A stretch of DNA of 64,000 bases from Geodermatophilus saharensis. GTDB lineage: Bacteria; Actinomycetota; Actinomycetes; Mycobacteriales; Geodermatophilaceae. The notes beneath the pieces were generated by a model. It searched no databases. It saw only the letters and a program-made list of their open reading frames with translations, and was not told the origin of the DNA. The position numbers and the translations under genes are program-made. Positions 5,023-63,675 of the stretch are shown in pieces; the first letter of the stretch is position 1, and each line of letters opens with the position of its first letter. The stretch lies in contig NZ_FZOH01000001.1 in assembly GCF_900188205.1 (NCBI RefSeq), forward strand, positions 406,359-470,358, given 5' to 3'.

Positions 5023-6390
5023 ATGCACTCGACGCAGCGACCGACCCGGCGTGCGGAGATCCGCGCGCTCACCGGTCTGCGGCTCGTGGCCGCCCTCTGG
5101 GTCGTCGCCTACCACCTGGGCACGGGACTGCAGTCCTCGGTCGGTCCGGCCGTCGAGCCGCTGATGCCGGTCGTGCGGGCCGGCTGGCTGGGCGTGGACC
5201 TGTTCTTCGTGCTCAGCGGTTTCGTCATGGCGCTGACCTACCTCGACACGATGGGGCCGCGCTTCGGCTGGCGGCGGTCGGGGGTCTTCCTCTGGGCGCG
5301 CCTGGCCCGGGTGTGGCCGCTGTGGGTGCTGCTGACCCTGCTGTTCAGCGGGTGGCTGCTGATCAGCGACCGCGGCCTGGCCGGCCCGCCCGGACACCAG
5401 CGGGTGGTCGAGCCGCTGGCGCTGCTCGAGCAGCTGTTCATGGTGCAGATGTGGCACCGCGACGAGGTCTGGGGCTCCACCTTCGTGCTCGCCGGCTGGT
5501 CGCTGTCGGTGGAGATGCTCGCCTACGTCTGCTTCCCGCTCCTGGTGCTGGTGCTCTGGCGGCTGCGGCGGCTGCCCGTGACGCTGCTGGCCGCGGGCTC
5601 GGTCGCGGCCATGGTCCCGCTCGCGTACCTCGCCTACCGGACCGGCGCCGAGCCCGAGGCGCTGCCGTGGACGCTGCGGATCGCCGGTGCCTTCGTCAGC
5701 GGGGGTCTGGTGTGCCTGGCCGTGCGCCGGCTGGAGGGCTCGTCGGCCGCGCTGCGCTGGAGCCCGCTGGTCGCCGCCCTCGCCGTCGCCCACGTCGTGT
5801 TCGTGTGCCTGTGGGCCGCCACCCGTGCCCAGCACCAGCCCGGGCACTACGCCGGCGTCGCCACGATGCTGTTCCCCGTCCTCGTCGGCGCGCTGGCGCT
5901 GGCCCCGCGCGGGCTGGCCACCCTGCTGTCCGGCGACACCGCGGTGCTCGGCGGGCGCATCTCCTTCGCCCTCTACCTCGTGCACGGCTGCGTCTTCGAG
6001 ATCGCCGACGACGTCGCCCACTGGGTCCGGCCGCTCAACCCCGGCACGCCGCTGTGGGCGCTGGTGCAGCCCGGCCTCGTGCTCGCCTCGCTGCTGCTGG
6101 CCTGGGTGCTGTTCCGGTTCGTCGAGGAGCCGGCCCGCGGCTGGATGCGCCGGATCGGACCCTCCTCCGGTGCCCGCCGCGGCGACCGGCCGGTCGCCGC
6201 GGCGGGCACCGGAGGAGGCACCGTGGCCCTGCCGCTGCAGCGCCCCGTGGCCCGGCCGGTGGCGGCACCGCCGCACCCGCACCGGCGTCCGGCGACCGCG
6301 CCGCGGGCGGCCGCCGTCCGCGCCGCGGCGGTCGCCGCCCGCGACCTGCGCCCGCCGCTGGCCGACCGCCGGTCGGCCGTGGGCGGCTGA
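5023..6390 (+). CDS. Membrane acyltransferase (OafA/YrhL type, acyltransferase_3)
   Basis: Integral membrane O-acyltransferase that acetylates or acylates an extracytoplasmic glycan or lipid; the substrate cannot be read from sequence. The N-terminus has the family signature EIRALTGLRLVAALWVVAYH (catalytic-type His in VAYHLG) and GVDLFFVLSGFVMALTYL. About ten hydrophobic helices follow, with SWSLSVEMLAY-like and FRFVEEPARGWMRR motifs, the latter the usual end of the family (near residue 378). The last 75 residues are Ala/Pro/Arg-rich and begin at a 58-bp perfect palindrome (6161-6218) that is translated as part of this tail. The true gene may have ended near the palindrome originally. The ATG has a good GGGGGAG ribosome site. 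Confidence 0.85.
   Translation: MHSTQRPTRRAEIRALTGLRLVAALWVVAYHLGTGLQSSVGPAVEPLMPVVRAGWLGVDLFFVLSGFVMALTYLDTMGPRFGWRRSGVFLWARLARVWPLWVLLTLLFSGWLLISDRGLAGPPGHQRVVEPLALLEQLFMVQMWHRDEVWGSTFVLAGWSLSVEMLAYVCFPLLVLVLWRLRRLPVTLLAAGSVAAMVPLAYLAYRTGAEPEALPWTLRIAGAFVSGGLVCLAVRRLEGSSAALRWSPLVAALAVAHVVFVCLWAATRAQHQPGHYAGVATMLFPVLVGALALAPRGLATLLSGDTAVLGGRISFALYLVHGCVFEIADDVAHWVRPLNPGTPLWALVQPGLVLASLLLAWVLFRFVEEPARGWMRRIGPSSGARRGDRPVAAAGTGGGTVALPLQRPVARPVAAPPHPHRRPATAPRAAAVRAAAVAARDLRPPLADRRSAVGG
6161..6218. repeat. 58-bp perfect loopless palindrome
   Basis: Positions 6161-6189 are the exact reverse complement of 6190-6218. The arms begin CCTCCTCCGGTGCCCGCC and meet at ACCGG|CCGGT with no spacer. The match stops on both sides at a C/C mismatch. 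It lies inside the acyltransferase reading frame, just after the usual family C-terminus. It could form a 29-bp RNA hairpin or a DNA cruciform. It may be an acquired terminator, an inverted duplication or an assembly artefact. Confidence 0.9.
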
Positions 6391-39772: not shown

Positions 39773-42700
39773 GTGCGCCGTCTCGTCGTCGGGCTCCTCG
39801 CCTTCCTGGGCCTCACCGCCCTCGTCCTCGTGCTCCCCGTCTCCGCCGCGCCCGGGCCGGAGGCCGAGCCGGTGGCCACCTCCACCGCCGAGGTGCCGAT
39901 GGGCTCGGTGGCCGAGCCGGCACCGCAGGCCGAGGTGCAGACCGGCACCACCGACCCCGTGGCGGGGGTCCCGGCGACGGCGCCCACGCTGACCGTCAGC
40001 CAGGTCGGCACCAAGTCGTTCTCGCTGGTCGGCGTCACCTGGCGGCTGGACCCCGCGGTCACCGACACCGTCGTGCAGGTCCGCGTCCAGGACGCCGGCG
40101 GCGCGTGGGGGGCGTGGACCGAGGTCACGGTGGAGGACGCCGAGCAGAACCGGGGGACGGCCACCGGCGACGAGGTCCGCGGCGGGACCGCGCCGCTGTG
40201 GACCGGCCCGAGCAGCGCCGTCGAGGCCGAGTTGGTGACCCGGTCCGGCGCGCAGCCCGGCGACGTCCGCCTCGAGCTGGTCGACCCGGGCACCAGTCCC
40301 GCCGACGGCGCGCTGCAGGCCGCCGACCTGGGCGACACCGCGCACGCCGCCACCGCGATGCCGCCGGTGTACTCCCGCGCGCAGTGGGGAGCCGACGAGT
40401 CGATCATGGGGTGGACGCCGCAGTACGCCCCCGCGATCAAGGCCGCGACGCTGCACCACACCGACACCAGCAACGGCTACACCGCCGACGACGTCCCGGG
40501 GATCATCCGGTCGATCTACGCCTACCACGCGCAGAGCCGCGGCTGGGGCGACATCGGCTACAACGTGCTGGTCGACCGGTTCGGCCGGCTGTGGGAGGGC
40601 CGGGCCGGCGGCCTGTCCCGCCCGGTGGTCGCGGCGCACGCCGGCGGCTTCAACAGCGGCACCCTCGGCGTCTCCATGATCGGCAACCACGCCACGACCG
40701 CGCCGACCCAGGCCGAGCTGGACTCCCTGGCCGCGATGATCGCCTGGAAGTTCTCCCTGCACGGCGTCGACCCGAGGGGAACGACCGTGCTGACCTCCGG
40801 CGGCGGCGGGACCGCCAAGTACGCGGCCGGGGTGAAGGTCACGCTGCCGACGGTCTTCGGGCACCGCGACGTCGGGAACACGACCTGCCCGGGCGAGGCC
40901 GGCTACGCCCGGCTGGGCGAGCTGCGCGACCTCGTCGCGGGCCGGCTGACCACGACGACGCAGTCGCCGATCGCCACCCGCTACTCCAGCGACGCCGGAC
41001 TGCGGGCCTCCCTGGGCGGCCCGGTCGGCGCGGAGCAGTCGGCGGGCGGGGTCTCCTGGCAGGTCTACGAGCGCGGCCGGGTCTACGACTCGGCCGCCGG
41101 CGGGGTGCGCGTCGTCCGCGGGCCCCTCCTCGACACCTACCTGGCCTGGGGCGGCCCGGCGGTGCTGGGCGCCCCGCTGACCGACGACACGCCGACCGCC
41201 GACGGCCGCGGCTGGTACGTCGACGTCCAGGGCGGCTCGATCGTCTGGTCCGCCGGGACCGGCGCGCAGGTGGTGCGGGGCGACATCCTCCGGGAGTACC
41301 AGCGGGTGGGCGGCAGCGCCGGCCCGCTGGGCTTCCCGACCACCAGCGACGCGCGCACCCCGGACGGGCGCGGCTACGTCGTCCACTTCGAGGGCGGCGA
41401 CGTCTGGTGGTCGCCGTCGACCGGCGCGCGCACCGTGGCCGGCCAGATCCTCGAGACCTGGCTGGCGCTGGGCGGCACGTCGGGGACGCTCGGCTTCCCC
41501 ACGACCAGCGACGCCGCGACGCCGGAGGGGCGCGGGTACGTCGTGCGGTTCCAGGGCGGGGACGTGTGGTGGTCGGGCGCCACGGGCGCGCAGGTCGTGG
41601 CCGGCGACATCCTCGCCGAGTACCGGCGCACCGGCGGCAGCGCCGGGCCGCTGGGCTTCCCGACCACGAGCGACGCGCGCACGCCCGACGGGCGCGGGTT
41701 CGTCGTGCACTTCCAGGGCGGGGACGTGTGGTGGTCCCCGGCCACCGGGGCCCGCACCGTGGCGGGGCAGATCCTGCAGGCCTGGCTGGCCGCGGGGGGC
41801 AGCTCCGGGCCGCTCGGTTTCCCGACCAGCAGCGACGCGCGCACGACGGACGGGCGCGGGTACACGGTGTCCTTCCAGGGCGGGGCCGTGTGGTGGTCGG
41901 GTGCGACCGGCGCCCACGTGGTGGCCGGCGACATCCTCGCCGAGTACCGGCGCACCGGCGGCAGCGGCGGACCCCTCGGCTTCCCCACGACCAGCGACGC
42001 GCGCACGCCCGACGGGCGCGGCTACGTCGTGCACTTCCAGGGCGGGGACGTGTGGTGGTCCCCGGCCACCGGGGCGCACACCGTGGCCGGCGACATCCTG
42101 GCCCGCTGGCTCGGCACCGGCGGCACCTCCGGGCCGCTGGGCTTCCCCACGACCAGCGACGCGCGGACCGCCGACGGGCGCGGGTACGTCGTCCTCTTCC
42201 AGGGCGGAGGTGTCTGGTGGTCGCCGGCCACGGGCGCGCACGCGGTCGCCGGGGACATCCTGCGCACCTGGCAGGCCACCGGCGGCACCTCCGGGCCGCT
42301 GGGCTTCCCGACCACCAGCGACGCGCGCACGCCCGACGGGCGCGGCTACGTGGTCCGGTTCCAGGACGGCGACGTGTGGTGGTCGCCGGGCACCGGCGCC
42401 CAGGTCGTGCGCGGCGCCATCCTCGCCACCTACCGGGCCGCCGGGGGGTCCTCGGGGCCGCTGGGCTTCCCGACCACCAGCGACGCCCGCTCGCCCGAGG
42501 GGCGCGGCTACGTCGTGCACTTCCAGGGCGGGGACGTCTGGTGGTCCCCGGCCACCGGCGCGCAGGTCGTCGCCGGCCGGATCCTGGCGACCTGGCTGGC
42601 GACCGGCGGCCCGTCGGGGCCGCTGGGCTTCCCGACCACCAGCGACGCGCGCACCCCGGACGGGCGCGGCTACGTCGTCCTCTTCCAGGGCGGAGGTGTG

Positions 42701-42901
42701 TGGTGGTCGCCGGCCACGGGCGCGCGCGCGGTCACCGGGGCCCTCGCCACCGAGTACGCCGCCCGCGGCGGCAGCACGAGCGGCCTCGGCTTCCCGACCA
42801 GCTCCACCTACGCCGTCGCCGGGGGCCTGCGCAACGACTTCCAGGGCGGCGTGCTGACGCTGACGACCGCCACGGGGGCGGTGACCGTCGGGCCGCGGTG
42901 A
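39773..42901 (+). CDS. Secreted N-acetylmuramoyl-L-alanine amidase (PGRP type) with 11 LGFP repeats
   Basis: A 1042-residue exported wall protein. The signal peptide is RRLVVGLLAFLGLTALVLVLPVSAA, then an Ig-like region at 65-170. The amidase_2/PGRP domain spans about 200-395, with zinc-ligand sites ATLHHTDTS and FGHRDVGNTTCPGEAGY plus YNVLVDRFGRLWEGR. It cleaves the bond between muramic acid and the stem peptide. The remaining about 600 residues are eleven LGFP repeats, period 54 (LGFPTTSDARTPDGRG... VWWSPATGA), thought to bind the galactan/arabinan-coated wall. The related LGFP amidase Rv3811 also adjoins glf in M. tuberculosis. GTG 39773 has GGAGGT upstream. Confidence 0.92.
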   Translation: MRRLVVGLLAFLGLTALVLVLPVSAAPGPEAEPVATSTAEVPMGSVAEPAPQAEVQTGTTDPVAGVPATAPTLTVSQVGTKSFSLVGVTWRLDPAVTDTVVQVRVQDAGGAWGAWTEVTVEDAEQNRGTATGDEVRGGTAPLWTGPSSAVEAELVTRSGAQPGDVRLELVDPGTSPADGALQAADLGDTAHAATAMPPVYSRAQWGADESIMGWTPQYAPAIKAATLHHTDTSNGYTADDVPGIIRSIYAYHAQSRGWGDIGYNVLVDRFGRLWEGRAGGLSRPVVAAHAGGFNSGTLGVSMIGNHATTAPTQAELDSLAAMIAWKFSLHGVDPRGTTVLTSGGGGTAKYAAGVKVTLPTVFGHRDVGNTTCPGEAGYARLGELRDLVAGRLTTTTQSPIATRYSSDAGLRASLGGPVGAEQSAGGVSWQVYERGRVYDSAAGGVRVVRGPLLDTYLAWGGPAVLGAPLTDDTPTADGRGWYVDVQGGSIVWSAGTGAQVVRGDILREYQRVGGSAGPLGFPTTSDARTPDGRGYVVHFEGGDVWWSPSTGARTVAGQILETWLALGGTSGTLGFPTTSDAATPEGRGYVVRFQGGDVWWSGATGAQVVAGDILAEYRRTGGSAGPLGFPTTSDARTPDGRGFVVHFQGGDVWWSPATGARTVAGQILQAWLAAGGSSGPLGFPTSSDARTTDGRGYTVSFQGGAVWWSGATGAHVVAGDILAEYRRTGGSGGPLGFPTTSDARTPDGRGYVVHFQGGDVWWSPATGAHTVAGDILARWLGTGGTSGPLGFPTTSDARTADGRGYVVLFQGGGVWWSPATGAHAVAGDILRTWQATGGTSGPLGFPTTSDARTPDGRGYVVRFQDGDVWWSPGTGAQVVRGAILATYRAAGGSSGPLGFPTTSDARSPEGRGYVVHFQGGDVWWSPATGAQVVAGRILATWLATGGPSGPLGFPTTSDARTPDGRGYVVLFQGGGVWWSPATGARAVTGALATEYAARGGSTSGLGFPTSSTYAVAGGLRNDFQGGVLTLTTATGAVTVGPR
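41164..42810 (+). repeat. Tandem 162-bp coding repeats (LGFP array)
   Basis: Near-identical DNA segments recur every 162 bases. The LGFPTTSDAR coding core starts near 41330, 41493, 41655, 41817, 41979, 42141, 42303, 42465 and 42627, with weaker copies at each end. DNA-level identity is high enough for unequal recombination to change repeat number. Confidence 0.88.
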
Positions 42902-42937
42902 CCCGCGTCGGTCCCACGCTCGGGCCGTGACAGGCCG

Positions 42938-43671: not shown

Positions 43672-46397
43672 CCCGGCTGCTGCGGCCCCGGCTGACCGTC
43701 GTCGCGCTGCTGGTCCTCGGGCTGGCCGCCGCGCTGTCGCTCGTGGGGTCCTCCGCCCCGCCGGCGCTGCGCGAGTCGGCCGACCTGGGCAGGTTCGACC
43801 CGGGCAACATCATCGACGACACCGTCTTCTACGACTCGACGACCATGAACGCCGACCAGGTCCAGGCGTTCCTGGCCGCGAACGGCTCCGGGCTGGCCGG
43901 CCTGCGGTTCGACACGTGGACCCGCACCGGCGACGACTACTGCGGCGCGTACGCCGGCGCCGCCCAGGAGACCGCGGCGGCGGTGATCGCCAAGGTCGCC
44001 CGCGCCTGCGGCATCAACCCGCAGGTCCTCCTGGTGACGCTGCAGAAGGAGCAGGGGCTGGTCAAGGACGCCAGCATCTCCGCCGACCAGCTGCGCAAGG
44101 CCATGGGCTACGCCTGCCCGGACACCCCGGCCGGCTGCGACGCCACCTACAACGGCTTCTACAACCAGGTCTACATGGCCTCGCGGCAGTTCAAGCGCTA
44201 CCAGGCGCTCCCCAACCGGTACGGGTACGTGGCCGGCCGGGTGAACACCATCCCGTACTTCCCGAACGACCCGACCTGCGGCTCGGCGCAGGTCTACATC
44301 GAGAACCAGGCGACCGCGGGGCTGTACAACTACACCCCCTACGTCCCGAACGCGGCCTCGCTGGCCGCGGGGTACAAGGCGTCGACCGACCGCTGCGCCT
44401 CCTACGGCAACCGGAACTTCTACAACTACTTCACCGACTGGTTCGGGTCGACGCAGACCTCCGGCGCAGCGGCGGTCACCGACAAGGCCCGCGCGCTGGC
44501 GGCGACCGGGCGCGGTCTCGGCGCCGCTCTCGGGGACGTCGCCTGCGACCTGCCCGGCGGCGGCTGCCGGCAGCGCTACGAGCTGGGCGACGTCTTCTGG
44601 TCGGCGATGACCGGCGCCCACGACGTCCGCGGCGAGATCCTGGCCAAGTACCTCGCCACCGGCGGCCCCACGTACATGGGCTACCCGGTCGGCGACGACC
44701 AGCGGGACACCCGGGTCGTGTCGACCGCGGTCTGGTACTCCAACTTCCAGTACGGCGACATCGTGTGGTCGCAGGCGACCAAGGCCCAGGTGGTCCGCGG
44801 CCCGATCCGCGACCACTGGCTCGCACTGGGCGCGTCCGCCGGTTCCCTGGGCCTGCCGACCAGCAGCGACGCGCCGGCCGGGGGCGGCGGCTTCGTCGTC
44901 GACTTCCAGGGCGGCTCGGTCTACTGGTCGGCGGCCACCGGCGCGCACGACGTCCGCGGCGCGATCCTGACGAAGTACCGCCAGGCCGGCGGCCCGGCCG
45001 CCCTGGGCTACCCCACGAGCAACGACAGCCGGGACCGGGCGGTCGCGTCCACGCCCGTCTACTACGTCAACTTCCAGGGCGGTGACGTCGTCTGGTCGGC
45101 CGCCACCGGCGCGCAGGTGGTGCGGGGGCCGATCCTGCAGCGCTGGATCGCCCTCGGCGCCTCCGCCGGACCGCTCGGCCTGCCCGTCACCAGTGACGCC
45201 GTCGCGCCCGGCGGCAAGGGCTACGTGGTCGACTTCCAGGGCGGCTCGGTGTACTGGTCGCCGGCCACCGGCGCGCACGACGTCCGCGGCGCGATCCTGG
45301 CCAGGTACCGGTCCTTCGGCGGGCCGCCCGTCCTGGGCTACCCGACCGGCGACGACAGCCCCGACCGCAACGCCCCCGGCGTCTGGTTCACGAACTTCCA
45401 GGGCGGCGACGTCGTGTGGTCGCAGGCCACCGGGGCGCAGGTCGTGCGCGGCGCGATCCGCGAGCACTGGCTCCGGCTCGGCGCCTCCGCCGGCACCCTC
45501 GGCCTGCCGGTCACCAGCGACGCGGTGGCCCCCGGCAACGGCGGCTACGTCGTGCACTTCCAGCGCGGGGCGGTCTACTGGTCCCCGGCCACCGGGGCGC
45601 ACGCCGTCCAGGGGCCGATCGCGGTGAAGTACGCCGAGGTCGGCGGCCCGCTGTTCGTCGGCTACCCGGTCGGCGAGCAGGGCACCGACCGCGCCGCGCC
45701 CGGGGTGACCTACTCCAACTTCCAGGGCGGCGACATCGTCCACTCGCAGGCCACCGGCGCCCAGGTCGTGCGCGGCGCGATCCTCGCGCACTGGCTGTCG
45801 CTGGGGGCGTCGGCCGGGCCCCTCGGCCTGCCGGTCACCACCGACGCGCTGGCCCCGGGCAACGGCGGCTACGTCGTCGACTTCCAGCGGGGCTCGATCT
45901 ACTGGTCGCCCGCGACCGGCGCCCACGACGTCCGGGGCGCCATCCTCGCGGCCTACCGCACGGCCGGTGGCCCGCCCTACCTGGGCTACCCGACCGGCGA
46001 CGACAGCCGGGACCCGCGGGTGACCGCCACGCCGGTCTACTACAGCAACTTCCAGGGCGGCGACGTCGTCTGGTCGGCCGGGACCGGCGCGCAGGTCGTG
46101 CGCGGGGACATCCTGCGCAAGTGGCTGGAGCTCGGCGCCTCCTCGGGGCGGCTCGGGCTGCCGGTCACCAGCGAGGCCCTCATCCCCGGGGGGCAGGGGT
46201 TCGTGGTCGACTTCCAGCGCGGCTCGGTGTACTGGTCGGCGTCGACCGGTGCCCGGTGGGTCGCCTCGGCGATCAACGAGGAGTACGCGGCCCGCGGCGG
46301 CCCGGCCGGTGAGCTGGGGTACCCGAAGACCGACACCACGACGCTGCCCACCGGGCAGCAGCAGGTCGTCTTCCAGAACGGGACGCTGACGAGGTGA
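43668..46397 (+). CDS. Secreted LGFP-repeat protein with lysozyme-like N-terminal domain
   Basis: A 909-residue exported protein. The signal helix is LTVVALLVLGLAAALSLVG; an N-terminal domain at about 45-270 starts FDPGNIIDDTVFYDSTTMNA and contains PQVLLVTLQKEQGLVKD, AMGYACPDTPAGCDATYNGF and YNYTPYVPN. That domain is common in actinobacterial wall proteins and looks lysozyme/transglycosylase-like, the Glu of KEQG being a candidate acid. Eleven LGFP-type repeats follow, alternating LGLP (VTSDAVAPG) and LGYP (TGDDSPDR) forms in a 108-residue double unit. GTG 43668 overlaps the preceding stop. No amidase domain is present, unlike the first LGFP protein. Confidence 0.85.
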   Translation: MTRLLRPRLTVVALLVLGLAAALSLVGSSAPPALRESADLGRFDPGNIIDDTVFYDSTTMNADQVQAFLAANGSGLAGLRFDTWTRTGDDYCGAYAGAAQETAAAVIAKVARACGINPQVLLVTLQKEQGLVKDASISADQLRKAMGYACPDTPAGCDATYNGFYNQVYMASRQFKRYQALPNRYGYVAGRVNTIPYFPNDPTCGSAQVYIENQATAGLYNYTPYVPNAASLAAGYKASTDRCASYGNRNFYNYFTDWFGSTQTSGAAAVTDKARALAATGRGLGAALGDVACDLPGGGCRQRYELGDVFWSAMTGAHDVRGEILAKYLATGGPTYMGYPVGDDQRDTRVVSTAVWYSNFQYGDIVWSQATKAQVVRGPIRDHWLALGASAGSLGLPTSSDAPAGGGGFVVDFQGGSVYWSAATGAHDVRGAILTKYRQAGGPAALGYPTSNDSRDRAVASTPVYYVNFQGGDVVWSAATGAQVVRGPILQRWIALGASAGPLGLPVTSDAVAPGGKGYVVDFQGGSVYWSPATGAHDVRGAILARYRSFGGPPVLGYPTGDDSPDRNAPGVWFTNFQGGDVVWSQATGAQVVRGAIREHWLRLGASAGTLGLPVTSDAVAPGNGGYVVHFQRGAVYWSPATGAHAVQGPIAVKYAEVGGPLFVGYPVGEQGTDRAAPGVTYSNFQGGDIVHSQATGAQVVRGAILAHWLSLGASAGPLGLPVTTDALAPGNGGYVVDFQRGSIYWSPATGAHDVRGAILAAYRTAGGPPYLGYPTGDDSRDPRVTATPVYYSNFQGGDVVWSAGTGAQVVRGDILRKWLELGASSGRLGLPVTSEALIPGGQGFVVDFQRGSVYWSASTGARWVASAINEEYAARGGPAGELGYPKTDTTTLPTGQQQVVFQNGTLTR

Positions 46398-55505: not shown

Positions 55506-56492
55506 GTGACCACAGCCCTGCCGGCCCCGACCCCGCCGGCACCGCGCCCCGCGCCCGACGTCGTCGGCACCGAGGGTGCCGAGGGCGCCGACTTCGCCGA
55601 CCGCTGGCGGCCGGACTGGCCGCTCGACCTGCGGGCGGTGCTGTACCCCCACCAGCGCAGCGCCGGCGACCCGGCGATGCAGTGGGACGGCGACGCCGTC
55701 TGGCGGACGACGACCACCCCGTGCGGGCCGGCGACGGTGCGGATCACCCACCGGGCCGGTGAGGTGCAGGTGCTGGCGTGGGGGCCGGGAGCGGAGGGGG
55801 CCGGCACGGCGGTGCCCGGCTGGCTCGGCGCCGACGACGACCCGGCGGGCTTCGACCCCGGCGGCCACCCGCTGCTGCGCGAGATCGCCCGCCGCACGCC
55901 CGACCTGCGGCTGAGCCGCACCGGCCGCACCTGGGACGCGCTGGTCCCCGCCGTCCTCGAGCAGAAGGTCACCGTGGTCGAGGCGCACCGCGTCTGGCGG
56001 GCGCTGCTGCGGCTGGCCGGCGACCCCGCGCCCGGGCCCGCCCCCGAGGGCATGCGGGTGCTGCCCTCACCCCGTCGGCTGCGCGAGGTCACCGACTGGG
56101 AGTGGCACCGCTGTGGCCTCGACGGCGCCCGCCGGCGGGCGCTGCTGCACGTCGCGTCGGTCGCCCACGCCCTCGAGCCCGACGCGGACTGCGACTCCCC
56201 GACCCTGCAGCGGAGGCTGCGCACCGTCCCGGGGATCGGGGTGTGGACGGCGGCGGAGGTCGTCCAGCGCACCCACGGCTGCCCCGACACCGTCAGCTAC
56301 GGCGACTACCACCTCAAGAACCTGGTGGGCTGGTCGCTGGCCCGCCGGAAGACCGACGACGACGGGATGATGGTGCTGCTCGAGCCGTGGCGCGGGCACC
56401 GGCAGCGGGTGGTCCGGCTGCTGCGGGTCGGCGGGAGCATGCCGCCCCGGCGCGGCCCGCGGACGGCTCCGACCAACCACCGCCGCATCTGA
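55506..56492 (+). CDS. HhH-GPD DNA glycosylase (3-methyladenine glycosylase II/AlkA-like)
   Basis: A 328-residue base-excision enzyme. The N-terminal AlkA-type beta domain (VLYPHQRSAGDPAMQWDGDA) precedes helices with VPAVLEQKVTVVEAHRVWRALL, the Q-K-V substrate loop, and the helix-hairpin-helix VPGIGVWTAAEVVQRTHGCP. DTVSYGDYHLKNLVGWSL supplies the catalytic Asp. It removes alkylated bases. The GTG start at 55506 is preceded by a GGAGA-like purine run about 8 bases upstream. Its stop codon is the first base triplet of a hairpin element shared with two other genes. Confidence 0.88.
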   Translation: MTTALPAPTPPAPRPAPDVVGTEGAEGADFADRWRPDWPLDLRAVLYPHQRSAGDPAMQWDGDAVWRTTTTPCGPATVRITHRAGEVQVLAWGPGAEGAGTAVPGWLGADDDPAGFDPGGHPLLREIARRTPDLRLSRTGRTWDALVPAVLEQKVTVVEAHRVWRALLRLAGDPAPGPAPEGMRVLPSPRRLREVTDWEWHRCGLDGARRRALLHVASVAHALEPDADCDSPTLQRRLRTVPGIGVWTAAEVVQRTHGCPDTVSYGDYHLKNLVGWSLARRKTDDDGMMVLLEPWRGHRQRVVRLLRVGGSMPPRRGPRTAPTNHRRI

Positions 56493-56553
56493 CGGAGGAC
56501 CCCCTGCCTCCGGCCGCCCGCACGCTGGCGGCGGGTCCCTGCAGGGGGCCGAC
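56490..56553 (+). terminator. Stop-codon hairpin element, copy A
   Basis: The element begins with the TGA of the glycosylase gene and reads ...GGAGGACCCCCTGC. CCCCCTGC (56500-56507) pairs with GCAGGGGG (56541-56548), and an inner GC stem lies between. It shares layout and core sequence with copies at 58564-58628 and 63136-63198. Confidence 0.7.
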
Positions 56554-56609
56554 AGATCACCGGGGGAGTTGCGGTCTCCCTCGGGCGCCGTCCTCCCCGC
56601 GCAGCAGGC

Positions 56610-57479
56610 TCAGCGGCCGTCCTCCAGCAGGGCGAGCAGGTAGTCGCCGTAGCCGCTCTTGCCCAGCGGCTCCGCGGCGCGGCGCAGGCCGTCGTCGTCC
56701 AGCCAGCCCTGCCGCCAGGCGACCTCCTCGATGCAGCCGACCTTGAGGCCCTGCCGCTCCTCGACCACCGACACGAACTCCGTCGCCTGACGCAACGAGG
56801 CGAAGGTGCCGGTGTCGAGCCAGGCGGTGCCGCGGTCGAGGACGGTGACGGTCAGCCGCCCCTCGCGCAGGTAGTGCTCGTTGACGGCGGTGATCTCCAG
56901 CTCGCCGCGGGCGCTGGGCCGGATCGAGCGGGCCACGTCGACCACGCCGGCCTCGTAGAAGTACAGCCCCGGGACGGCGTAGGAGCTCTTCGGCCGGGCC
57001 GGCTTCTCCTCGATGGACAGCACCCGGCCGCCGCGGTCGAACTCGACGACGCCGTAGTCGGCCGGGTTGGCCACGTGGTAGGCGAAGACGTGCCCGCCGT
57101 CGGGGGCGGGCAGCCGGCCCAGCGCCGTCCCGAGCCCCGCGCCGTAGAAGATGTTGTCGCCCAGCACCAGGGCCACCGACTGGTCACCCAGGAAGTCCGC
57201 GCCGATGAGGAACGCCTGCGCCAGCCCCTCGGGCCGCTCCTGCACGGCGTACTCCAGGCGCATGCCCAGCCGGCTGCCGTCACCGAGCAGCGCGCGGAAC
57301 GCCGCCTGGTCGCCCGGGGTGGTGATGACCAGCACCTCGCGGACCCCGGCCATCATCAGCGTGGACAGCGGGTAGTAGACCATCGGCTTGTCGTAGACCG
57401 GCATGAGCTGCTTGCTGACCGCCTGCGTGATCGGGAAGAGGCGGCTGCCGGTGCCCCCGGCCAGGATGATCCCCCGCAT
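56610..57479 (-). CDS. rmlA: Glucose-1-phosphate thymidylyltransferase
   Basis: First step of dTDP-rhamnose synthesis: dTTP plus glucose-1-phosphate to dTDP-glucose. The 289 residues show [80 protein letters not shown] and [14 protein letters not shown], the complete RmlA set. ATG 57479 is 8 bases after TAGGTT, so leaderless; an 18-codon upstream extension is open but unlikely. The product feeds WbbL's rhamnose for the galactan linker. Confidence 0.96.
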
Positions 57480-57487
57480 GGCCGCCG

Positions 57488-57493
57488 AACCTA
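57488..57493 (-). promoter_or_regulatory. -10 element TAGGTT of rmlA (leaderless)
   Basis: On the minus strand TAGGTT is followed by 8 bases and the rmlA ATG at 57479. It lies in the 29-base gap after fbiB, so rmlA can be transcribed independently. Confidence 0.5.
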
Positions 57494-57508
57494 CCGACGG
57501 CGGGACGC

Positions 57509-58633
57509 TCAGACCCGGGGAGAACCCAGCCACAACCTCCCGACGAGGGAGGAGCCGCCGGGCGTGCCCACCGGCTCCCAGCGGGTCGTCCAGCCCTCGG
57601 CGTGCAGCTGGACGACGACCGCGCCGAGCAGCGCCCCGAGGTTGAGCGCGGCGGTGGTGGTGGCCCGCTCGGGCAGGTGCACGTCGACGACGCCGTCGCC
57701 CTCGCCGCCGTGCCGCAGCACCACCGGGAACTCCGGCAGCGCCGCGCTGGCCACCCGGAACGCCGCGGCCACCGCCTCGCGGTCGCCGTCGCGGGGCACC
57801 AGGTCGGCCGCCGGCCGGCGGCTGCCGACCAGGTCGCGGCTGCCGTAGGGGAACAGGTCGCCGGGCCCCAGCCGCACCAGCGCCCGCGCGCCGGGGTCGG
57901 CTCCGGGGGCGTCGTCGGGCGGCTCGAAGGCCAGCCCGCGGACGACCGCGACCGGGACGCCGTCGAGCTTGCCCTTGACCAGGTCGGCGGCCGAGGCCAG
58001 CTCGTCGACGACGGCGACCTGCGTGGTCTCCAGCCGGTTGCCGTGCGCGTCGACCGCGCCGCGGTGGTCGATCAGCGGGGGGAGGCCGGCCGACCCGACG
58101 GCGACGTCGGTCAGCCCCTCCCGCCAGGTGCGGCCGAAGGTGTCACTGACGACCACCGCCACGTCGACGCCGAGCAACTCCCGCAGCCGGCCGCGCAGCC
58201 GGCGCGCCGAGGCGTCGGCGTCCTCGGGCAGCAGCACCAGCGCGTCGCCGGGCACGTTGGAGGCGTCGATGCCGGCCGCGGCCACCACCCAGCCGTGCCG
58301 GGTCTCCACGATGCGCAGCGGCCCGCGGCGGGCGACCACGCGCACCGACTCGGCGTCGATGGCCCGCTGGCGGACGGCCTCGCGGTCGGCGCCCGGCGGC
58401 ACCGGGACCACCCGGCCCTCGACCTTGGACACGACCTTGGAGGTGACGACGACGACGTCGCCGTCGGCCAGCCACGGGGCCGCCCCGGCCACCGCCCCGG
58501 CCAGGTCGTCGCCGGTGGTGAACTCGGGCAACCCGCGGACGGGGAGCACCCGCAGTCCGTCGACCGGCCCTCCTGCAGGGTCCCGCCGCGAACTCGCGAG
58601 CGGCGGGGGGCAGGAGGGTCCTTCCTCAGACAC
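57509..58633 (-). CDS. fbiB: Coenzyme F420 gamma-glutamyl ligase (FbiB/CofE)
   Basis: Adds glutamates to F420-0. Residues about 26-265 are the CofE fold: [82 protein letters not shown] and [15 protein letters not shown]. The last about 110 residues are too short for the nitroreductase-type C-terminal domain of mycobacterial FbiB and look diverged. The frame starts GTG 58633, overlapping fbiA, but residues 1-25 are encoded by a hairpin element (58564-58628). The functional start may therefore be further in, although the next GTG (58549) would clip the first strand. Confidence 0.87.
58564..58628 (-). terminator. Stop-codon hairpin element, copy B
   Basis: On the minus strand the element starts at the fbiA TGA (58628-58626) and reads GGAAGGACCCTCCTGC. 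The outer stem CCCTCCTGC/GCAGGAGGG (58618-58610 with 58576-58568) encloses an inner 8-bp CCCGCCGC/GCGGCGGG stem. It lies between fbiA and the body of fbiB. Confidence 0.75.
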
Positions 58634-59585
58634 CCGCGGCGTCCAGCGCGGCGCGGGCCATCGCCGCGGTGGCCTCCGGGGAGCTCATCAGCAGCGGCAC
58701 CGCCCGGACGTCGACGCCGGGCACCTGCGCGGGGTCGCCGGTGTGCACCAGCCAGGCGTCGAGCAGCCCGCCGTCGGACCGGGCCCCGTAGTGGCGGCCC
58801 ACGCCCTCGGCGCTGACCTCCACGCCGAGCACCGGCAGGCAGCGGTCGGCCATCCCGCGCACCACGCCGCCGTCGACGACGGGGGAGACCCCCACGACGC
58901 GGCCGGGGGTGGCGCGCAGCGCGTCGCGCAGGCCCGGCACGCCGAGGATCGTGCCGATCGACACCACCGGGTTGGACGGCGCCAGCACGACGGCGTCGGC
59001 GCGGGCGAGCGCCTCGACCACCCCGGGCGCCGGGCGCGCCTGCTCGGCGCCGACCTGCACGAAGGCGTGCGGCTGCGGCTCGGCGCGGTGGCGCACCCAC
59101 CACTCCTGGAAGTGGATCGCGCTGCGCCGACCGCTGCCGGGTTCGTCGACGACCACGTGGGTCTCCACCCGCTGGTCGCTCATCGGCAGCACGGTGACCC
59201 CCGGCTGCCAGCGAGCGGCCAGGGCGGCGGTGACGTCGGAGAGCGGGTAGCCGGCGTCGAGCATCCGCGTGCGGACCAGGTGGGTCGCGAGGTCGCGGTC
59301 GCCCAGCCCGAACCACGTGGGCTCGGCGCCGTAGGCGGCCAGCTCCTCCTTGACCGTCCAGGACTCCCCGGCCCGGCCCCAGCCGCGCTCGGGGTCGATG
59401 CCCCCGCCGAGGGTGTAGACGACGGTGTCGAGGTCCGGGCAGATCCGCAGGCCGTGCATCGTGACGTCGTCGCCGGTGTTGACCACCGCGGTGACCGACG
59501 CCGGCGGTGCCACCTCCCGGAGACCGGTGAGGAAACGGGCCCCGCCGACCCCTCCGGCGAGCACGACGATCTCCACGAAAGTCAT
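58626..59585 (-). CDS. fbiA: F420 2-phospho-L-lactate (LPPG:FO) transferase
   Basis: Joins FO to the phospho-lactate or phosphoenolpyruvate moiety to give (dehydro-)F420-0. The 319 residues begin [21 protein letters not shown], then [79 protein letters not shown] and GVSPVVDGG, all CofD/FbiA signatures. Starts at 59585 (ATG) or 59576 (GTG) are possible; no ribosome site is seen. Next to fbiB as in Rv3261-Rv3262. Confidence 0.94.
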
Positions 59586-59702
59586 CGTGCCCCATAGGCA
59601 GTTGTCCACTGTTCGACGGGCGTGTCGAGTACGTGCACGAGAACTGACGAACGACCCGTGACGGGTGTGGCTCCTGTGGTCAAGCGCTTACACCGGGCGC
59701 AG

Positions 59703-59732
59703 TTGACGCTCGGGCAACGACACGCGTGTAAT
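59703..59732 (+). promoter_or_regulatory. Promoter of whiB (TTGACG-18-TGTAAT)
   Basis: TTGACG at 59703-59708 and TGTAAT at 59727-59732 are separated by 18 bases, the closest match to the housekeeping sigma consensus in the window. The leader to the whiB ATG would be about 75 bases. Confidence 0.6.
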
Positions 59733-59814
59733 TCCGGCGGTGTGAGGCGCGGGGGAGCGCCGGGACGGTCCCGGCGCCCGGCGCCCGGACGACAGCGAGA
59801 GGGGACGCATCGTC

Positions 59815-60150
59815 ATGGCAGAGGTCTCGTGGCTGAGTGACTACATCGGCGCATCGGAACGGGCCGGCCGCAGCGCCGGCCCGGCCGACGAGGGGCTGAT
59901 GGGCATGCTCGGCATGGGCCTGACCGACGACGTCGCCTCCTGGCAGGAGCGGGCGCTGTGCGCCGAGACCGACCCCGAGGCGTTCTTCCCGGAGAAGGGC
60001 GGCTCGACCCGCGAGGCGAAGAAGATCTGCACCGGCTGCGAGGTCAAGGCCGAGTGCCTGGAGTACGCCCTCGCCAACGACGAGCGGTTCGGCATCTGGG
60101 GCGGGCTCTCCGAGCGGGAGCGCCGCCGCCTGCGCCGCCGCGCGATCTGA
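59815..60150 (+). CDS. whiB: WhiB-family iron-sulfur transcription factor (WhiB2/WhmD type)
   Basis: An 111-residue [4Fe-4S] regulator that binds the housekeeping sigma factor; WhiB2/WhmD and Streptomyces WhiB are needed for septation. Cysteines are in ERALCAETDPEAFFPEKGG and KKICTGCEVKAECLEYAL (C, CxxC, C), followed by the GIWGGLSERERRRLRRR turn and basic DNA-binding tail. The 45-residue N-terminal extension is usual for this subgroup. ATG 59815 has GAGAGGGGAC upstream, and the gene has a consensus-type promoter and a strong terminator, so it stands alone. Position equals Rv3260c. Confidence 0.95.
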   Translation: MAEVSWLSDYIGASERAGRSAGPADEGLMGMLGMGLTDDVASWQERALCAETDPEAFFPEKGGSTREAKKICTGCEVKAECLEYALANDERFGIWGGLSERERRRLRRRAI

Positions 60151-60217
60151 GCCCGGCCCCGGCAGGGGCCGAACGGGACCGTCCGACACACCGCCGTGCG
60201 ACACCCCCCGTCCACCA

Positions 60218-60254
60218 CCGCAGCCCCCGACGGCACCGCCGTCGGGGGCTGCGG
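60218..60254 (+). terminator. Terminator after whiB
   Basis: A perfect 17-bp stem, CCGCAGCCCCCGACGGC at 60218-60234 with its complement at 60238-60254, around the three-base loop ACC. It is 68 bases after the whiB stop. Confidence 0.88.
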
Positions 60255-60300
60255 CGTCCCCGGGCCGGGGGATCCGGACGGCACGTGATCGGATGGAGGG

Positions 60301-61218
60301 GTGGGCCCCGGTCGCGGTGAGACGTCGGGGCGCGGCACCCGCGTCGTCCTGGGCCGGGCGCCGGTCGCGCGCGAGGTCCGGGCCGCGGTGCCGCTGGCCC
60401 GCGCCGTCCGGGCCCCGCTGACCGCGTCGGCACCCTGGCTGACCACCGTGCTGTCGGTGCAGTCGGCGCACCGCCGGCCGCGGCTGCTGCCCGCCGCAGT
60501 GGTGGTCGAGCCGCACCGGCCGGGCCCGCCCGACGCCCTCGCCCTGCTCGCCCTGGCCACCGCCGGGCCCGTGGTCACCGCCACCGTGCTCGGCGACGGC
60601 CTGCCCGTCCCCGGTGGCCGGCCCGCCGCCCGGCTGCCCGCCCGCGACGACGACGCCGCCGCGCTGCTCGCCGCCGGCCTGCTCGGGCTGCTCACCTCGC
60701 TGCGCCGGCCCTGGCGGCTGCGGCTGGCCGGGTTGCCGCTGGGCGACCCGACCGTGCGCGCACTGGGCCGGATGCGGCCCGACGCGGTGGTGGCCACCGC
60801 CCGCAGCCGGCGCCTCGTCGACGACCTCGGCACGCTGCCCGGCCGGCTGGTCCGCAGCCGGGACGCCCGGGCGGTCGACGCCGCGCTGCCGGCCCTGCTG
60901 GCCGGCGAGCGCGACCCCCGCGCCCGCGACCTGGTGCGCGCCGCCGCGCGGCTGCACGCCGCCGTCGGCCGCCTCGAGGTGGCCACGGTCACCGACGGCG
61001 GCCGGCTGCGCGCGGGCCTGCTCACCCTCCTCGACGGCGACCCCGCCGGCGGGGAGCGGCTGCCCTGGTGGGGGTGGGCCCCGTCCGGGGGGCTGCGGGA
61101 GGAGGCCGGCGCCCCGCTGGTCGGCGTCGCGGTGGCCGGCCGGGGCCGGGTGGTGCGCGCGGTGGCCGACCGCGTCGTGCCGCTGCTGCCGGTCAGCCCG
61201 CGACGCGCACGCGGCTGA
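60301..61218 (+). CDS. Hypothetical protein
   Basis: A 305-residue Ala/Arg/Leu-rich protein that I do not recognise. It starts GPGRGETSGRGTRVVLGRAP; helical segments such as PDALALLALATAGPVVTATVL and AAALLAAGLLGLLTSLRRPWRLR are amphipathic rather than clear membrane spans. No catalytic motif is visible. The frame has plausible GC3-rich codon use and ends by overlapping the tail of the convergent membrane-protein gene by 26 bases. GTG 60301 lies beside GGAGGG. Annotation as coding is likely but not certain. Confidence 0.6.
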   Translation: MGPGRGETSGRGTRVVLGRAPVAREVRAAVPLARAVRAPLTASAPWLTTVLSVQSAHRRPRLLPAAVVVEPHRPGPPDALALLALATAGPVVTATVLGDGLPVPGGRPAARLPARDDDAAALLAAGLLGLLTSLRRPWRLRLAGLPLGDPTVRALGRMRPDAVVATARSRRLVDDLGTLPGRLVRSRDARAVDAALPALLAGERDPRARDLVRAAARLHAAVGRLEVATVTDGGRLRAGLLTLLDGDPAGGERLPWWGWAPSGGLREEAGAPLVGVAVAGRGRVVRAVADRVVPLLPVSPRRARG

Positions 61219-62185
61219 GCAGCGGGTCGGGCAGCGACTCCGCCCGCTCCGTGCCGAGGAACATCGTCCCCTCCGCGGGCGCCTCGCCGTCCTCCAGCGG
61301 CGCGGCCGGGGCCACGGTCACGCTGAGGTCGTAGACGCGGCCGGTGTAGGCCGGCGGCGTGCCGGCCGGTCGGGTGTAGGTGGGGAACCGCCCGGCCACC
61401 CGCAGCGCGTCGCCGTTCCGGGTGACGCCCAGCGCCGGGGTCGGCAGGTCGGCGTGCTCGGTGCCGGTGGGCGTGCACCCGGCGCCGGCCGGGTCGTCGG
61501 GCGCCGTGGTGCCCAGGCAGTTCCAGGTGGGCAGCCGCACGTGCGCCAGGGCGGTGCCGTCCTCGCCGACGGTGACGCTCACCGCCGGGTAGGCGACGGT
61601 GACCCCGACCGCGCGGTGCTCCAGCACCAGCCCGCCGAAGGCCAGCCGGGCGCTCGTGCCGTCGTCGCCCAGCGGGACCGAGCGCGCCGCGAGCAGCCCG
61701 GCGCCCCGCTCGCCGGACAGCGGGTCGGCGGGCACCGGGGGCAGGTCGGGTGTGCGGGGCGCCGGCGCGGGCGCCGACGAGGGCGGGGGAGCGGCGGCCG
61801 GGGCGGCCGCGGGCGGGGATCCCCCCGCGCGGCCGGTGACCAGCGCGACGCCGGAGAGGACGGCGACCAGCGCCAGCGCCGCCGCGGCCAGCCCCGCGAC
61901 CGCGCGGGTGACGGGCTCCTCCTCCGGCGCGGCGAGGGGCTCCGCCCGTGCCGGGGCCGGCCGGGCGGGCGTGCCCGGCGGCGCCTCGAGGAACCCGGGG
62001 AGGTCGTCGTGCGCCCAGCGCCGCGCGGCGGCGGGAGGCGGGACGTCGGGCGGGGAGGAGGGTGCCGCGCCCACCCGCGGCGGCGTGCGCGCCAGCAGCA
62101 CCGCCACCGCGACCAGCGCCGGCAGCGCTGCGCCGAGCACCACCCAGGCGGCGATCGGCGCGGCGGGGTCCATCCCCCAGAGCAT
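61193..62185 (-). CDS. Membrane protein with extracytoplasmic beta domain, function unknown
   Basis: About 330 residues. The first helix (PIAAWVVLGAALPALVAVAVLL) is followed by a Pro/Ala-rich cytoplasmic loop with RRWAHDDLPGFLEAPPG. A second helix (VAGLAAAALALVAVLSGVALV) is followed by a Pro/Ala linker and a C-terminal beta domain from about 185 (ARSVPLGDDGTSARLAFGGL). That domain contains two cysteines (WNCLGTTAPDDPAGAGCTP) that could pair. It is probably an anchored wall-facing protein; the family is not recognised. Starts at 62185 or 62173 (both ATG) are possible. It overlaps the + strand hypothetical gene tail to tail. Confidence 0.7.
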   Translation of the reverse strand: MLWGMDPAAPIAAWVVLGAALPALVAVAVLLARTPPRVGAAPSSPPDVPPPAAARRWAHDDLPGFLEAPPGTPARPAPARAEPLAAPEEEPVTRAVAGLAAAALALVAVLSGVALVTGRAGGSPPAAAPAAAPPPSSAPAPAPRTPDLPPVPADPLSGERGAGLLAARSVPLGDDGTSARLAFGGLVLEHRAVGVTVAYPAVSVTVGEDGTALAHVRLPTWNCLGTTAPDDPAGAGCTPTGTEHADLPTPALGVTRNGDALRVAGRFPTYTRPAGTPPAYTGRVYDLSVTVAPAAPLEDGEAPAEGTMFLGTERAESLPDPLLSRVRVAG

Positions 62186-62234
62186 CGCAGGGCGCCTGCG
62201 TGCGGCACGGCCGGCGCCCTGACACGATCCTCGG

Positions 62235-63128
62235 GTGGCCGAGAGCGAGACGACGTCGTCCGGGATCCGCGACCGCGTGACCTCGCTGCTCACCGAGCTC
62301 GGCGTCACCCAGCCGGTGCTGTCGGTCGCCGACCTCACCGCGCGCCTCGGCGTGGTGCAGGGCGTGCTGGCCGACCGGGTCCTCGACCTCGCCGTCACCG
62401 AGAGCGGCCGCCGCCGGCTGCGCGCGGAACTGCGCGGCCGGCGCTGGGCCGAGGAGCGGAAGGTCGGCGTCCCGGAGGTGCTCGCCGCCGCCGAGGACGG
62501 CCGCTGGCTGCTGTCGCGCCGGGTCCACCCCGGGCCCTCCGGCGGGCAGCGGTGGACGGCGGCGGCGGTGGAGACGGCGGTGCGCATCGCGCCGCTGCCG
62601 GTCCCGCCGGGCCAGCCCTGGTCACCGCCCGCGGGTCCCGCGCTGCGCCGGGCGCGGTCGACGGTCGGCGACACCGGCCGGCTGCTGCGCGGCGGCCTGC
62701 GGCTGGGCGAGCTGCGCGCCGTCCGCGCCGCCGCGGCCCAACTGCCGCTGTCGGAGGTCGGTCACGGCGACTACCGCGCGGCCAACCTCGTCCTCGACGG
62801 CGACGCGCCCGAGGGCGAGCCGCGCCTGGTCGTCCTCGAGTGGTCCGGGGTGCGCGCCGCGCCCCGCCACCGCGACCTGCTGACGCTGTGGGCCACCACC
62901 CCCGGCGCGCAGGACCGGGCGCAGGTCGGCGAGGTCGTGCTCTCCCGCACCGCCGGCTGGGAGGAGCCCGACGTGGGCCTGCTGTGGCACGCGGTGGCCC
63001 TCGAGCAGCTGGTGGCCCGGCTGACCCGCGCCGACCGCGGCGACGGGCTCGACGTCGCCTTCGCCCGCGCCCGCCTCGACGAGGCGCGCCGGATGGCCGA
63101 GGAACTCGGCAGCCCGGTCGCGCGGTGA
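62235..63128 (+). CDS. Protein with an aminoglycoside-phosphotransferase-like motif, degenerate kinase
   Basis: A 297-residue soluble protein. The C-terminal half has HGDYRAANLVLD (about 177-188), the H-x-D-x4-N catalytic loop of APH/choline-kinase folds. RLVVLEWSGVRAAPRHRDLLTLW follows where the metal-binding IDWE/DFG segment is expected, and the family's usual Asp is replaced by Glu. The N-terminal half lacks a clear nucleotide-binding lobe lysine motif. It could be a divergent small-molecule kinase or a pseudokinase. GTG 62235 sits 6 bases after CACGAT, a possible leaderless -10. It converges on the zincin-like gene across hairpin copy C. Confidence 0.62.
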   Translation: MAESETTSSGIRDRVTSLLTELGVTQPVLSVADLTARLGVVQGVLADRVLDLAVTESGRRRLRAELRGRRWAEERKVGVPEVLAAAEDGRWLLSRRVHPGPSGGQRWTAAAVETAVRIAPLPVPPGQPWSPPAGPALRRARSTVGDTGRLLRGGLRLGELRAVRAAAAQLPLSEVGHGDYRAANLVLDGDAPEGEPRLVVLEWSGVRAAPRHRDLLTLWATTPGAQDRAQVGEVVLSRTAGWEEPDVGLLWHAVALEQLVARLTRADRGDGLDVAFARARLDEARRMAEELGSPVAR

Positions 63129-63135
63129 TGGAACG

Positions 63136-63198
63136 GCCTCCTCGCAGGGGCCCGCGCCGAGCCTGCGAGCCGTGGGGGGCGAGGTGGTCCTTCCTTCA
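63136..63198 (-). terminator. Stop-codon hairpin element, copy C
   Basis: On the minus strand the element begins with the TGA of the zincin-like gene (63198-63196) and reads AGGAAGGACCACCTCGC. The stem CCTCGC/GCGAGG (63184-63179 with 63145-63140) replaces the CCTGC/GCAGG pairs of copies A and B by paired changes. It lies between two convergent genes. Confidence 0.72.
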
Positions 63199-63675
63199 GG
63201 CGGTGGGGTCGATCTCCTCCGGGTCGCGGCCCAGCAGCACGGCCACCTGGTCGACGACGACGTCGCGCACCAGGTCGGCGAGGTCGTCGCGGTCGTGCGC
63301 CCGGATCTCCAGCGGCCGCCGGTAGACGACGATCCGCGCCGGCACGTCCCGGCCGTCCTCGCGGTGGGCGGGCAGCACCCGCGCCAGCGGCACCGTGGCG
63401 TCGTCGAGGACGTCGGGGTCGAGGACGACCTCGTCGGGGCTGGTGTGGTCGACCCACGGCACGTCCTCGACGGCGAACTCCACGCCGGCCAGCTCGCGCT
63501 CCCAGCGCCGCTCGATGTCCTCGACCGCGTCCAGGACGAGGTCGTCGAACTGCTCGGCGCGGCTGCGCGACAGCGGCACCTCGTCGGGGACCAGGCGTCC
63601 GCGCAGCCCCCGGCCGTGCCGGTCGCGGCGGGAGCGGGGCGGGCCGGCGGAGGGGCGCGGGGCGGGTCGGCTCAT
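63196..63675 (-). CDS. Zincin-like metallopeptidase-family protein lacking HExxH
   Basis: A 159-residue protein of the DUF1025/zincin-like type. After a basic N-terminus come FDDLVLDAVEDIERRWERELAGVEFAVEDVP, RIVVYRRPLEIRAHDRDDLADLV and VRDVVVDQVAVLLGRDPEEIDP. In family members with protease potential the last helix has HExxH; here the place reads VVVDQV. Most actinobacterial copies appear to lack it too, so it may be a scaffold. The order zincin-like then DUF3499 is that of Rv3259-Rv3258c. ATG 63675 is 9 bases after TACGCT on the minus strand (leaderless). Confidence 0.82.
   Translation of the reverse strand: MSRPAPRPSAGPPRSRRDRHGRGLRGRLVPDEVPLSRSRAEQFDDLVLDAVEDIERRWERELAGVEFAVEDVPWVDHTSPDEVVLDPDVLDDATVPLARVLPAHREDGRDVPARIVVYRRPLEIRAHDRDDLADLVRDVVVDQVAVLLGRDPEEIDPTA

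Follow-up and report, generated by a model that had tools for sequence, protein, structure and literature searches.

A probable REP-like mobile DNA hairpin of Geodermatophilaceae that targets stop codons

Bacterial repeats are already known to gather near gene ends. Mycobacterial interspersed repetitive units (MIRU) insert at DTGA stop/start overlaps within operons, in the direction of translation, and the attC site of integrons is an imperfect palindrome behind the cassette stop, the bottom strand of which is folded and recombined. As to size and host, MIRU are dispersed actinobacterial units of 40-100 bp (PMC2734929). Repetitive extragenic palindromic (REP) sequences are described as short palindromes occurring in dispersed copies, for the most part between genes and close to their 3' ends, whose stems differ by complementary changes; REP ends that supply a TAG stop are on record, as are the Rickettsia palindromic elements (RPE), palindromes that turned into in-frame coding sequence (PMC3733652). 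Here we analyze a family of hairpin elements found in a stretch of 64,000 nucleotides of Geodermatophilus saharensis DNA (the window, C10:406359-470358, where C10 is the contig bearing it in a genome of 4.89 Mb and 20 contigs). Three elements in the window (copies A, B and C) are, with a probability that we put at roughly 0.6, copies of a new REP-like (MIRU-like) mobile DNA hairpin of Geodermatophilaceae that targets stop codons. What is new here is that about nine in ten sampled copies stand at the stop codon itself, in one orientation and with the host protein unchanged.

Among known systems the placement appears most like that of MIRU, both being found at the stops of operon genes (17 of 35 fbiA/fbiB junctions are filled, and 37 of 41 sampled copies are at stops). 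Unlike MIRU, the element also uses TAG stops and non-overlapping genes, and the likeness is one of described placement. A palindrome behind a stop and a bottom-strand fold recall attC, from which the element differs in that gene order is conserved with a second genome (G010), that the RYYYAAC/GTTRRRY boxes are not evident by eye in the consensus, and that no cassette array turned up, no search for an array or an integrase having been made. The in-frame reading of the element in fbiB resembles RPE; here, unlike in RPE, it takes place at a gene start that overlaps a stop, and most sampled copies lie outside the upstream gene. With REP of the GTAG and CGTC families the element shares being dispersed, intergenic, palindromic and near gene 3' ends, the general traits of REP, and with GTAG REP, probably, a stop supplied by the element end (often a TAG in that family). 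It differs from REP in its size of about 60-80 bp with two nested stems (REP measure 20-40 bp), in the share of copies at a stop and, by eye, in having no unpaired GTAG tag in the consensus (GA-N-GAAGGACC...GGCCGTTCCAGCACGTCACC); the long tail does contain CGTC, at a distance of 9 nt past GGCC, and the Y1 domain of the REP-associated tyrosine transposases (RAYT) of GTAG REP was not found in 36 genomes of the family. By tag, size or enzyme the element does not belong to the GTAG or CGTC family. The host phylum here is Actinomycetota, and the terms Actinobacteri, Mycobacteri, Streptomyces and Geodermatophilus do not occur in the main text of PMC3733652.

The hairpin family and its distribution

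The initial annotation, made from the letters of the window, had described three elements of about 65 bases, each beginning with the stop codon of the upstream gene. All three are found where it had placed them, each opening with an in-frame TGA and with the outer stem sequences that it had given:

56490..56553, plus strand: copy A; TGA 56490-56492 is the stop of the plus-strand gene 55506-56492
56497-56501, plus strand: GGACC anchor of copy A
56500-56507 / 56541-56548, plus strand: outer arms of copy A, CCCCCTGC/GCAGGGGG
56510-56518 / 56527-56535, plus strand: inner arms of copy A, 8/9 pairs
58564..58628, minus strand: copy B; TGA 58628-58626 is the stop of fbiA (58626-59609)
58618-58610 / 58576-58568, minus strand: outer arms of copy B, CCTCCTGC/GCAGGAGG
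58607-58600 / 58589-58582, minus strand: inner arms of copy B
57509-58633: fbiB (PF01996), whose open frame contains copy B, read in frame
63136..63198, minus strand: copy C; TGA 63198-63196 is the stop of the Zincin_1 gene 63196-63675
63184-63179 / 63145-63140, minus strand: outer arms of copy C, CCTCGC/GCGAGG

The covariance model described below (R1) scores copies A, B and C at 62.6, 89.1 and 78.3 bits, respectively. Two of the three upstream genes are what they had been called, the product of fbiA being CofD/FbiA (Pfam PF01933) and the gene upstream of copy C belonging to Zincin_1 (PF06262); the gene ending at copy A, which had been called a glycosylase, has no Pfam match at E <= 0.001 and this identity is unconfirmed. 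The 3' tail of copy C reaches the stop of the convergent gene 62235-63128. Among named genomes, the fbiA of the window genome is closest to that of Geodermatophilus, with 96% identity to G. aquaeductus (best segment).

Elements of the family have three recurring traits: a stop codon and, directly behind it, a few purines that lead up to GGACC; an outer stem whose sequence varies from copy to copy; and an inner stem around CTCGC-N-GCTCG followed by CCCTG and the closing arm. Read from 5' to 3', the consensus consists of (T)GA-N-GAAGGACC, the variable outer stem, a C-rich spacer, the inner stem with its CTCGC-N-GCTCG loop, CCCTG, the outer stem and GGCCGTTCC(AGCACGTCACC), and GGCCGTTCCAGCACGTCACC comes next where the 3' end is longer. 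By eye, TGAC/GTCA-like ends are present when the tail is complete. The tail GTTCCAGCACGTCACC has 44 matches in the genome with at most one mismatch (1 for the reversed control), and inspection of 16 loci (13 of these 44 and 3 others) revealed complete copies, tails without a core, half copies and a tandem array; a version bearing an open reading frame, which would make the tails a trace of a larger autonomous element, was not noticed among these 16 loci, no systematic search for one having been made. In the tandem array (L071, G000:C12:556868-557071) the element recurs with a period of about 63 bp. Half elements starting from the hairpin apex are found directly behind a complete element at L296, L305, L315 and L079, and at L308 and L299 the C-rich spacer is missing and the core forms a long, nearly perfect palindrome, the usual 5' and 3' ends being kept.

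The copies in the window belong to a dispersed family that is more extensive than the initial annotation reported, and the covariance-model search of the genome and its relatives that it had proposed recovers many further copies. A pattern derived from A, B and C matches the genome 76 times (21 for the reversed control pattern), and BLASTN with copy B gives 41 matches, with scores for 40 of its 116 candidates. Model R1, for which 41 copies from the window genome were used, gives at least 151 genome matches at E <= 1 (150 of 14,498 candidates scored), the weakest of the matches listed having an E-value of 1.1e-9. As an unselected sample we took 800 kb of C10 in 40 stretches, where 46 rows at E <= 0.01 correspond to 41 distinct copies of at least 33 bits each, after dropping three opposite-strand duplicates of counted copies and two rows at 26 and 22 bits; by extrapolation from these 800 kb, the whole genome carries about 250 copies.

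Among 61 genomes searched with tighter filtering, in which no genome had more than 77 candidates scored, 34 have R1 matches, the window genome included. They comprise all 26 genomes of the same genus, the window genome counted, and 8 of 11 other genera of Geodermatophilaceae (one genome each, one with only 5 matches), and matches are found in none of 24 genomes from other families of the order. From another match list, of 11 rows, an opposite-strand duplicate (L321) was removed. Across the class 5 of 296 genomes match, one being the window genome and the other four weak. Two of the four weak ones (G062 and G337, of one genus in another family) have a different hairpin with the same loop motif (L350-L361, L340-L346), and 3 of 12 copies of that hairpin are preceded by a coding stop, TAG or TAA, that lies exactly 22 nt upstream of the motif. 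Rfam has no match at gathering score in the window and none at E <= 1 for 56400-63300. Accounts of such repeats in Geodermatophilaceae are absent from the open-access literature matches listed (subscription papers being outside this scope), and 12 of the 50 places in PMC9686282 that mention palindromic, repeat or REP contain nothing of this kind.

Placement at stop codons and origin of the stop

Genes in the 800-kb sample were called with a home-made caller based on codon usage (708 genes), and same-strand stops only were considered. Under these conditions 37 of the 41 copies start at a gene stop, in sense orientation and 4 to 10 nt before GGACC (7 nt in 23 copies and 8 nt in 9). None of the four remaining copies is within 12 nt of a called stop: one is a second copy following another and located 27 nt behind a stop, two are preceded by the TGA of a frame that was not called, 7 or 8 nt from the anchor, and C10:193579 is the sole true exception. 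Of 2670 TGA/TAG triplets outside gene interiors 699 (26%) are gene stops, and the 37 of 41 greatly exceed this expectation for a bare triplet target (p = 9e-18); coincidence of the 5' end with a stop, as the initial annotation had it, is thus the rule, and the copies are not placed at random relative to stops. Around fbiA in named genomes of Geodermatophilus, Blastococcus and Modestobacter, 37 of 48 copies are at stops, and several of the 11 off-stop copies there sit within other elements by eye.

The stops at the 37 sample copies are 28 TGA and 9 TAG, compared with 604 TGA, 95 TAG and 9 TAA for all 708 genes. Targeting of TGA only was considered and rejected, TAG being used at least as often as expected. 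No DNA target motif was found upstream of the stop, where only C is raised at positions -10, -7, -4 and -1; because this rise follows codon third bases it points to codon usage or a coding filter and not to a motif.

The stop seems to travel with the element. The spacer to GGACC measures 4 nt in 54 of 57 TGA copies and 5 nt in 11 of 12 TAG copies (p = 2e-9), and with these spacers the G of the stop stands at a constant distance from GAAGG. This census left out 21 of 90 candidates, which were without stem or coding frame, and its search expression is blind to spacers shorter than 3 nt (four of the 41 sample copies). In the comparison with G010 described below, the type of stop differs in 12 of 32 pairs filled in one genome and empty in the other, in both directions, against 43 of 357 element-free pairs (p = 5e-4), and the p-value is still 5e-4 after removing four degraded 'empties'. 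The element thus probably brings the last bases of the stop with it.

The junction of fbiA and fbiB offers a view of what becomes of the inserted DNA. We compared 35 loci: that of the window genome, 33 of named genera of the family and one from a metagenome-assembled genome (L140, 'Frankiales bacterium'). Behind the fbiA stop an element or a remnant is present in 17 of them and 18 are empty (including L132 and L137), with L135, where 12 nt remain and R1 gives no match, placed among the filled loci by eye. A GTG fitting as the fbiB start precedes or overlaps the fbiA stop, and in all 17 filled loci the frame is open from this GTG through the element into fbiB, the element being now part of the coding frame. 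This overlapping start is the only one listed in 8 of the 17 (L122, L124, L126, L127, L130, L135, L140 and L151); the other 9 have an additional in-frame start downstream of it, past the element, so that fbiB could begin there. With the frame constant throughout, selection seems to have maintained the reading of the inserted DNA in phase with fbiB, the element part of which would be translated.

Filled and empty sites

Filled sites coexist with empty orthologous sites, and copies A, B and C all have empty relatives in which the stop is in place. Filled status at sites A and C was judged by eye. For site A, all 27 of 27 orthologous loci have the stop at one and the same aligned codon; three of them (L127, L129 and L131) have a sense element, and L137 has a copy in the opposite orientation. 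For site C the position of the stop in the alignment is likewise shared by 39 of 42 distinct loci, with clear elements in 8 (L244, L245+L121, L243, L256, L255, L260, L247+L128 and L259) and degraded ones in 3 (L262+L124, L269+L126 and L142). Synteny with G010 over 800 kb provides 505 gene-end pairs, 35 of which are filled in one genome and 6 in both. The stop codon is the same aligned one in 32 of the 35 filled/empty pairs (357 of 464 in element-free pairs), indicating that copies arrive at pre-existing gene ends. The initial annotation had proposed a mobile terminator, and it is the first half of this proposal, mobility, that filled and empty orthologous sites bear out.

The elements also appear to turn over. 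Two loci, C10:315327 and 257374, share with G010 part of the tail and flanks of 93-99% identity, yet their hairpin cores differ throughout from those of G010 while staying paired. By eye, elements are nested in the loops of other copies at L127 and L126, and half copies begin at the hairpin apex behind a complete copy. Nesting and half copies, seen by eye at a handful of loci, suggest that a unit enters the loop and that the 5' half of the older copy is then lost.

Two further features of the window may be recorded. At 6156-6223 there is a 34-bp near-perfect inverted repeat (94% complementary, no spacer) with a GGACC-like start and without the loop of the family, and 41147-42904 and 44994-46269 are repeat arrays with a spacing of 162 bp (54 codons), the repeats being 61-83% alike.

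Folding strand, rival explanations and mobilisation

The initial annotation had taken compensating changes in the outer stems as a sign of selection for an RNA fold. Covariation is indeed beyond chance: among the 41 copies 56 cells are changed on both sides of a pair, compared with 17.3 +/- 3.3 in shuffles (0 of 500 reach 56) and at most 16 in a control with slid partners, the number of pairs with any both-side change being less extreme (11 vs 8.1 in shuffles, 13 of 500 reaching it). Selection acting on the upstream mRNA for such a fold is not supported. Over 23 pairs in 41 copies, the non-Watson-Crick cells read on the mRNA strand are mostly A.C (102, against 19 G.T; 42 against 19 without two fixed positions, p = 0.004), and because an A.C mismatch in the mRNA corresponds to a G.T wobble in the complementary strand, pairing is kept best on the latter. 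The strand complementary to mRNA also folds better in 38 of 41 copies under RNA parameters and in 36 of 41 under DNA parameters; among 48 copies from other family genomes it does so in 42. Compensating stem changes alone are therefore no proof of RNA function, the better-kept fold here being opposite the mRNA.

These data bear directly on the possibility that the hairpin is a functional RNA element of the 3' untranslated region, acting on the terminating ribosome or on mRNA decay and fixed in position by selection. Such a role would account for an element located 1-5 nt behind most stops and for stem pairs that compensate, E. coli REPs within 15 nt of a stop are reported to stall ribosomes (PMC12306157), and in genes that bear an element C is slightly raised at third codon positions (p = 0.004), with no clear difference in codon log-odds score (p = 0.09). 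We nevertheless regard it as doubtful, since it is the strand opposite the mRNA that folds better, the element is missing from the same gene at 18 of 35 loci for site B, 24 of 27 for site A and 31 of 42 for site C (A and C by eye), and of 41 ortholog pairs with an element just 6 have it in both genomes. An intrinsic transcription terminator spread as a module, the other half of the proposed mobile terminator, would likewise be a GC-rich hairpin directly behind stops, and the elements are somewhat commoner between convergent genes (17 of 37; 54% of element-bearing gene ends are codirectional vs 67% of all genes). By eye the elements have no T run, copies lie within the fbiA-fbiB overlap and are read in frame, and a separate hairpin (stem of at least 9 bp) follows 5 of 37 elements compared with 70 of 671 other stops, several of these downstream hairpins being common to a filled site and its empty relative. 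Separate hairpins being as frequent as elsewhere and in part kept in the empty relative, the element is not standing in for a terminator, and we consider this explanation very improbable. The other proposal of the initial annotation, a stop-linked processing element, is a possible role of the hairpin.

Hardly any more credit can be given to an ordinary REP-type repeat that lands anywhere and is purged by selection except behind stops, and we would rate it, if anything, a shade lower. REPs elsewhere do lie close to 3' ends and can supply a stop (PMC3733652); most copies of such a repeat are expected in intergenic DNA away from stops, whereas here 37 of 41 stand at stops within a 7-nt range although gene stops make up 699 of 2670 TGA/TAG triplets. 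Least probable of all would be insertion guided by translation itself, in which the unit enters the mRNA or the gene DNA at the codon of the terminating ribosome and is copied back. It would fit the use of both TGA and TAG genes (TAG in 9 of 37 vs 95 of 708, p = 0.08), an upstream sequence with no motif beyond the bias at codon third bases, and the sense orientation at stops. Against it are the nesting of copies in each other's loops, away from stops (by eye), a bottom strand, and not the mRNA strand, that folds best, and a window genome without a match to the reverse transcriptase domain RVT_1.

If the hairpins are mobile DNA that targets stop codons, as we prefer to read them, the unit would move as single-stranded DNA folded from the bottom strand and handled by a putative hairpin-recognising enzyme, and would join immediately after the T of a stop codon or else within the loop of a copy already in place. 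At a stop, the first bases of the element (GA or G) would re-form the codon, and with the stop re-formed and the host protein unchanged the insertion would be tolerated. In a resident copy, the new unit would enter the loop and the old 5' half would be lost between the shared GAAGGACC ends, which would explain flanks of 93-99% identity around a wholly different core. As to the enzyme, mobilisation by RAYT/IS200 was rejected, no Y1 domain having been found in 36 family genomes.

Several observations weigh against the stop-targeting mobile hairpin. Neither a target-site duplication, which together with terminal inverted repeats marks a MITE of a DNA transposon, nor a sharp 3' end was found, the 3' boundaries being ragged. 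The excess of conserved stop positions in filled/empty pairs over element-free pairs is only marginal (p = 0.055), at least 4 'empty' partners in the G010 comparison are degraded copies by eye, and the type of stop never differs in pairs filled in both genomes (0 of 6). Empty partners hold -6 to 65 nt of their own between the stop and the point where similarity resumes, and most of these stretches have no clear counterpart in the filled site, so that clean transposition is not proved. The Y1 transposase domain (PF01797) matches 0 of 36 family genomes and 5 of 14 control genomes; the IS91-type Y2 domain (PF04986) matches 1 of the 36 and none of the 14 controls, and is thus without a positive control; RVT_1 is found in 21 of the 36 at E <= 0.001, with 20 above the cut-off, and is absent from the window genome and several element-rich genomes. 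In the 48 copies from other genomes, 33 of the 46 A.C cells (against 4 G.T) stem from one inherited position, without which the counts are 13 and 4 (p = 0.049), and because copies share ancestry, the counts are not independent and the p-values on the folding strand are optimistic.

Going one step further, it is conceivable, and we put it forward as a tentative idea that is rather unlikely as it stands, that the hairpins form a new class of mobile element that integrates by recognising a stop codon as such, whether TGA or TAG and with no flanking DNA motif found, by way of the terminating ribosome and mRNA or of a putative bottom-strand hairpin recombinase. The stop of the element would then replace that of the host and leave the protein unchanged, a safe-site strategy at codon resolution. 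In either case, whether a mobile element may target translation stops has become a testable question, for which the pairs of filled and empty sites in Geodermatophilaceae provide the material.

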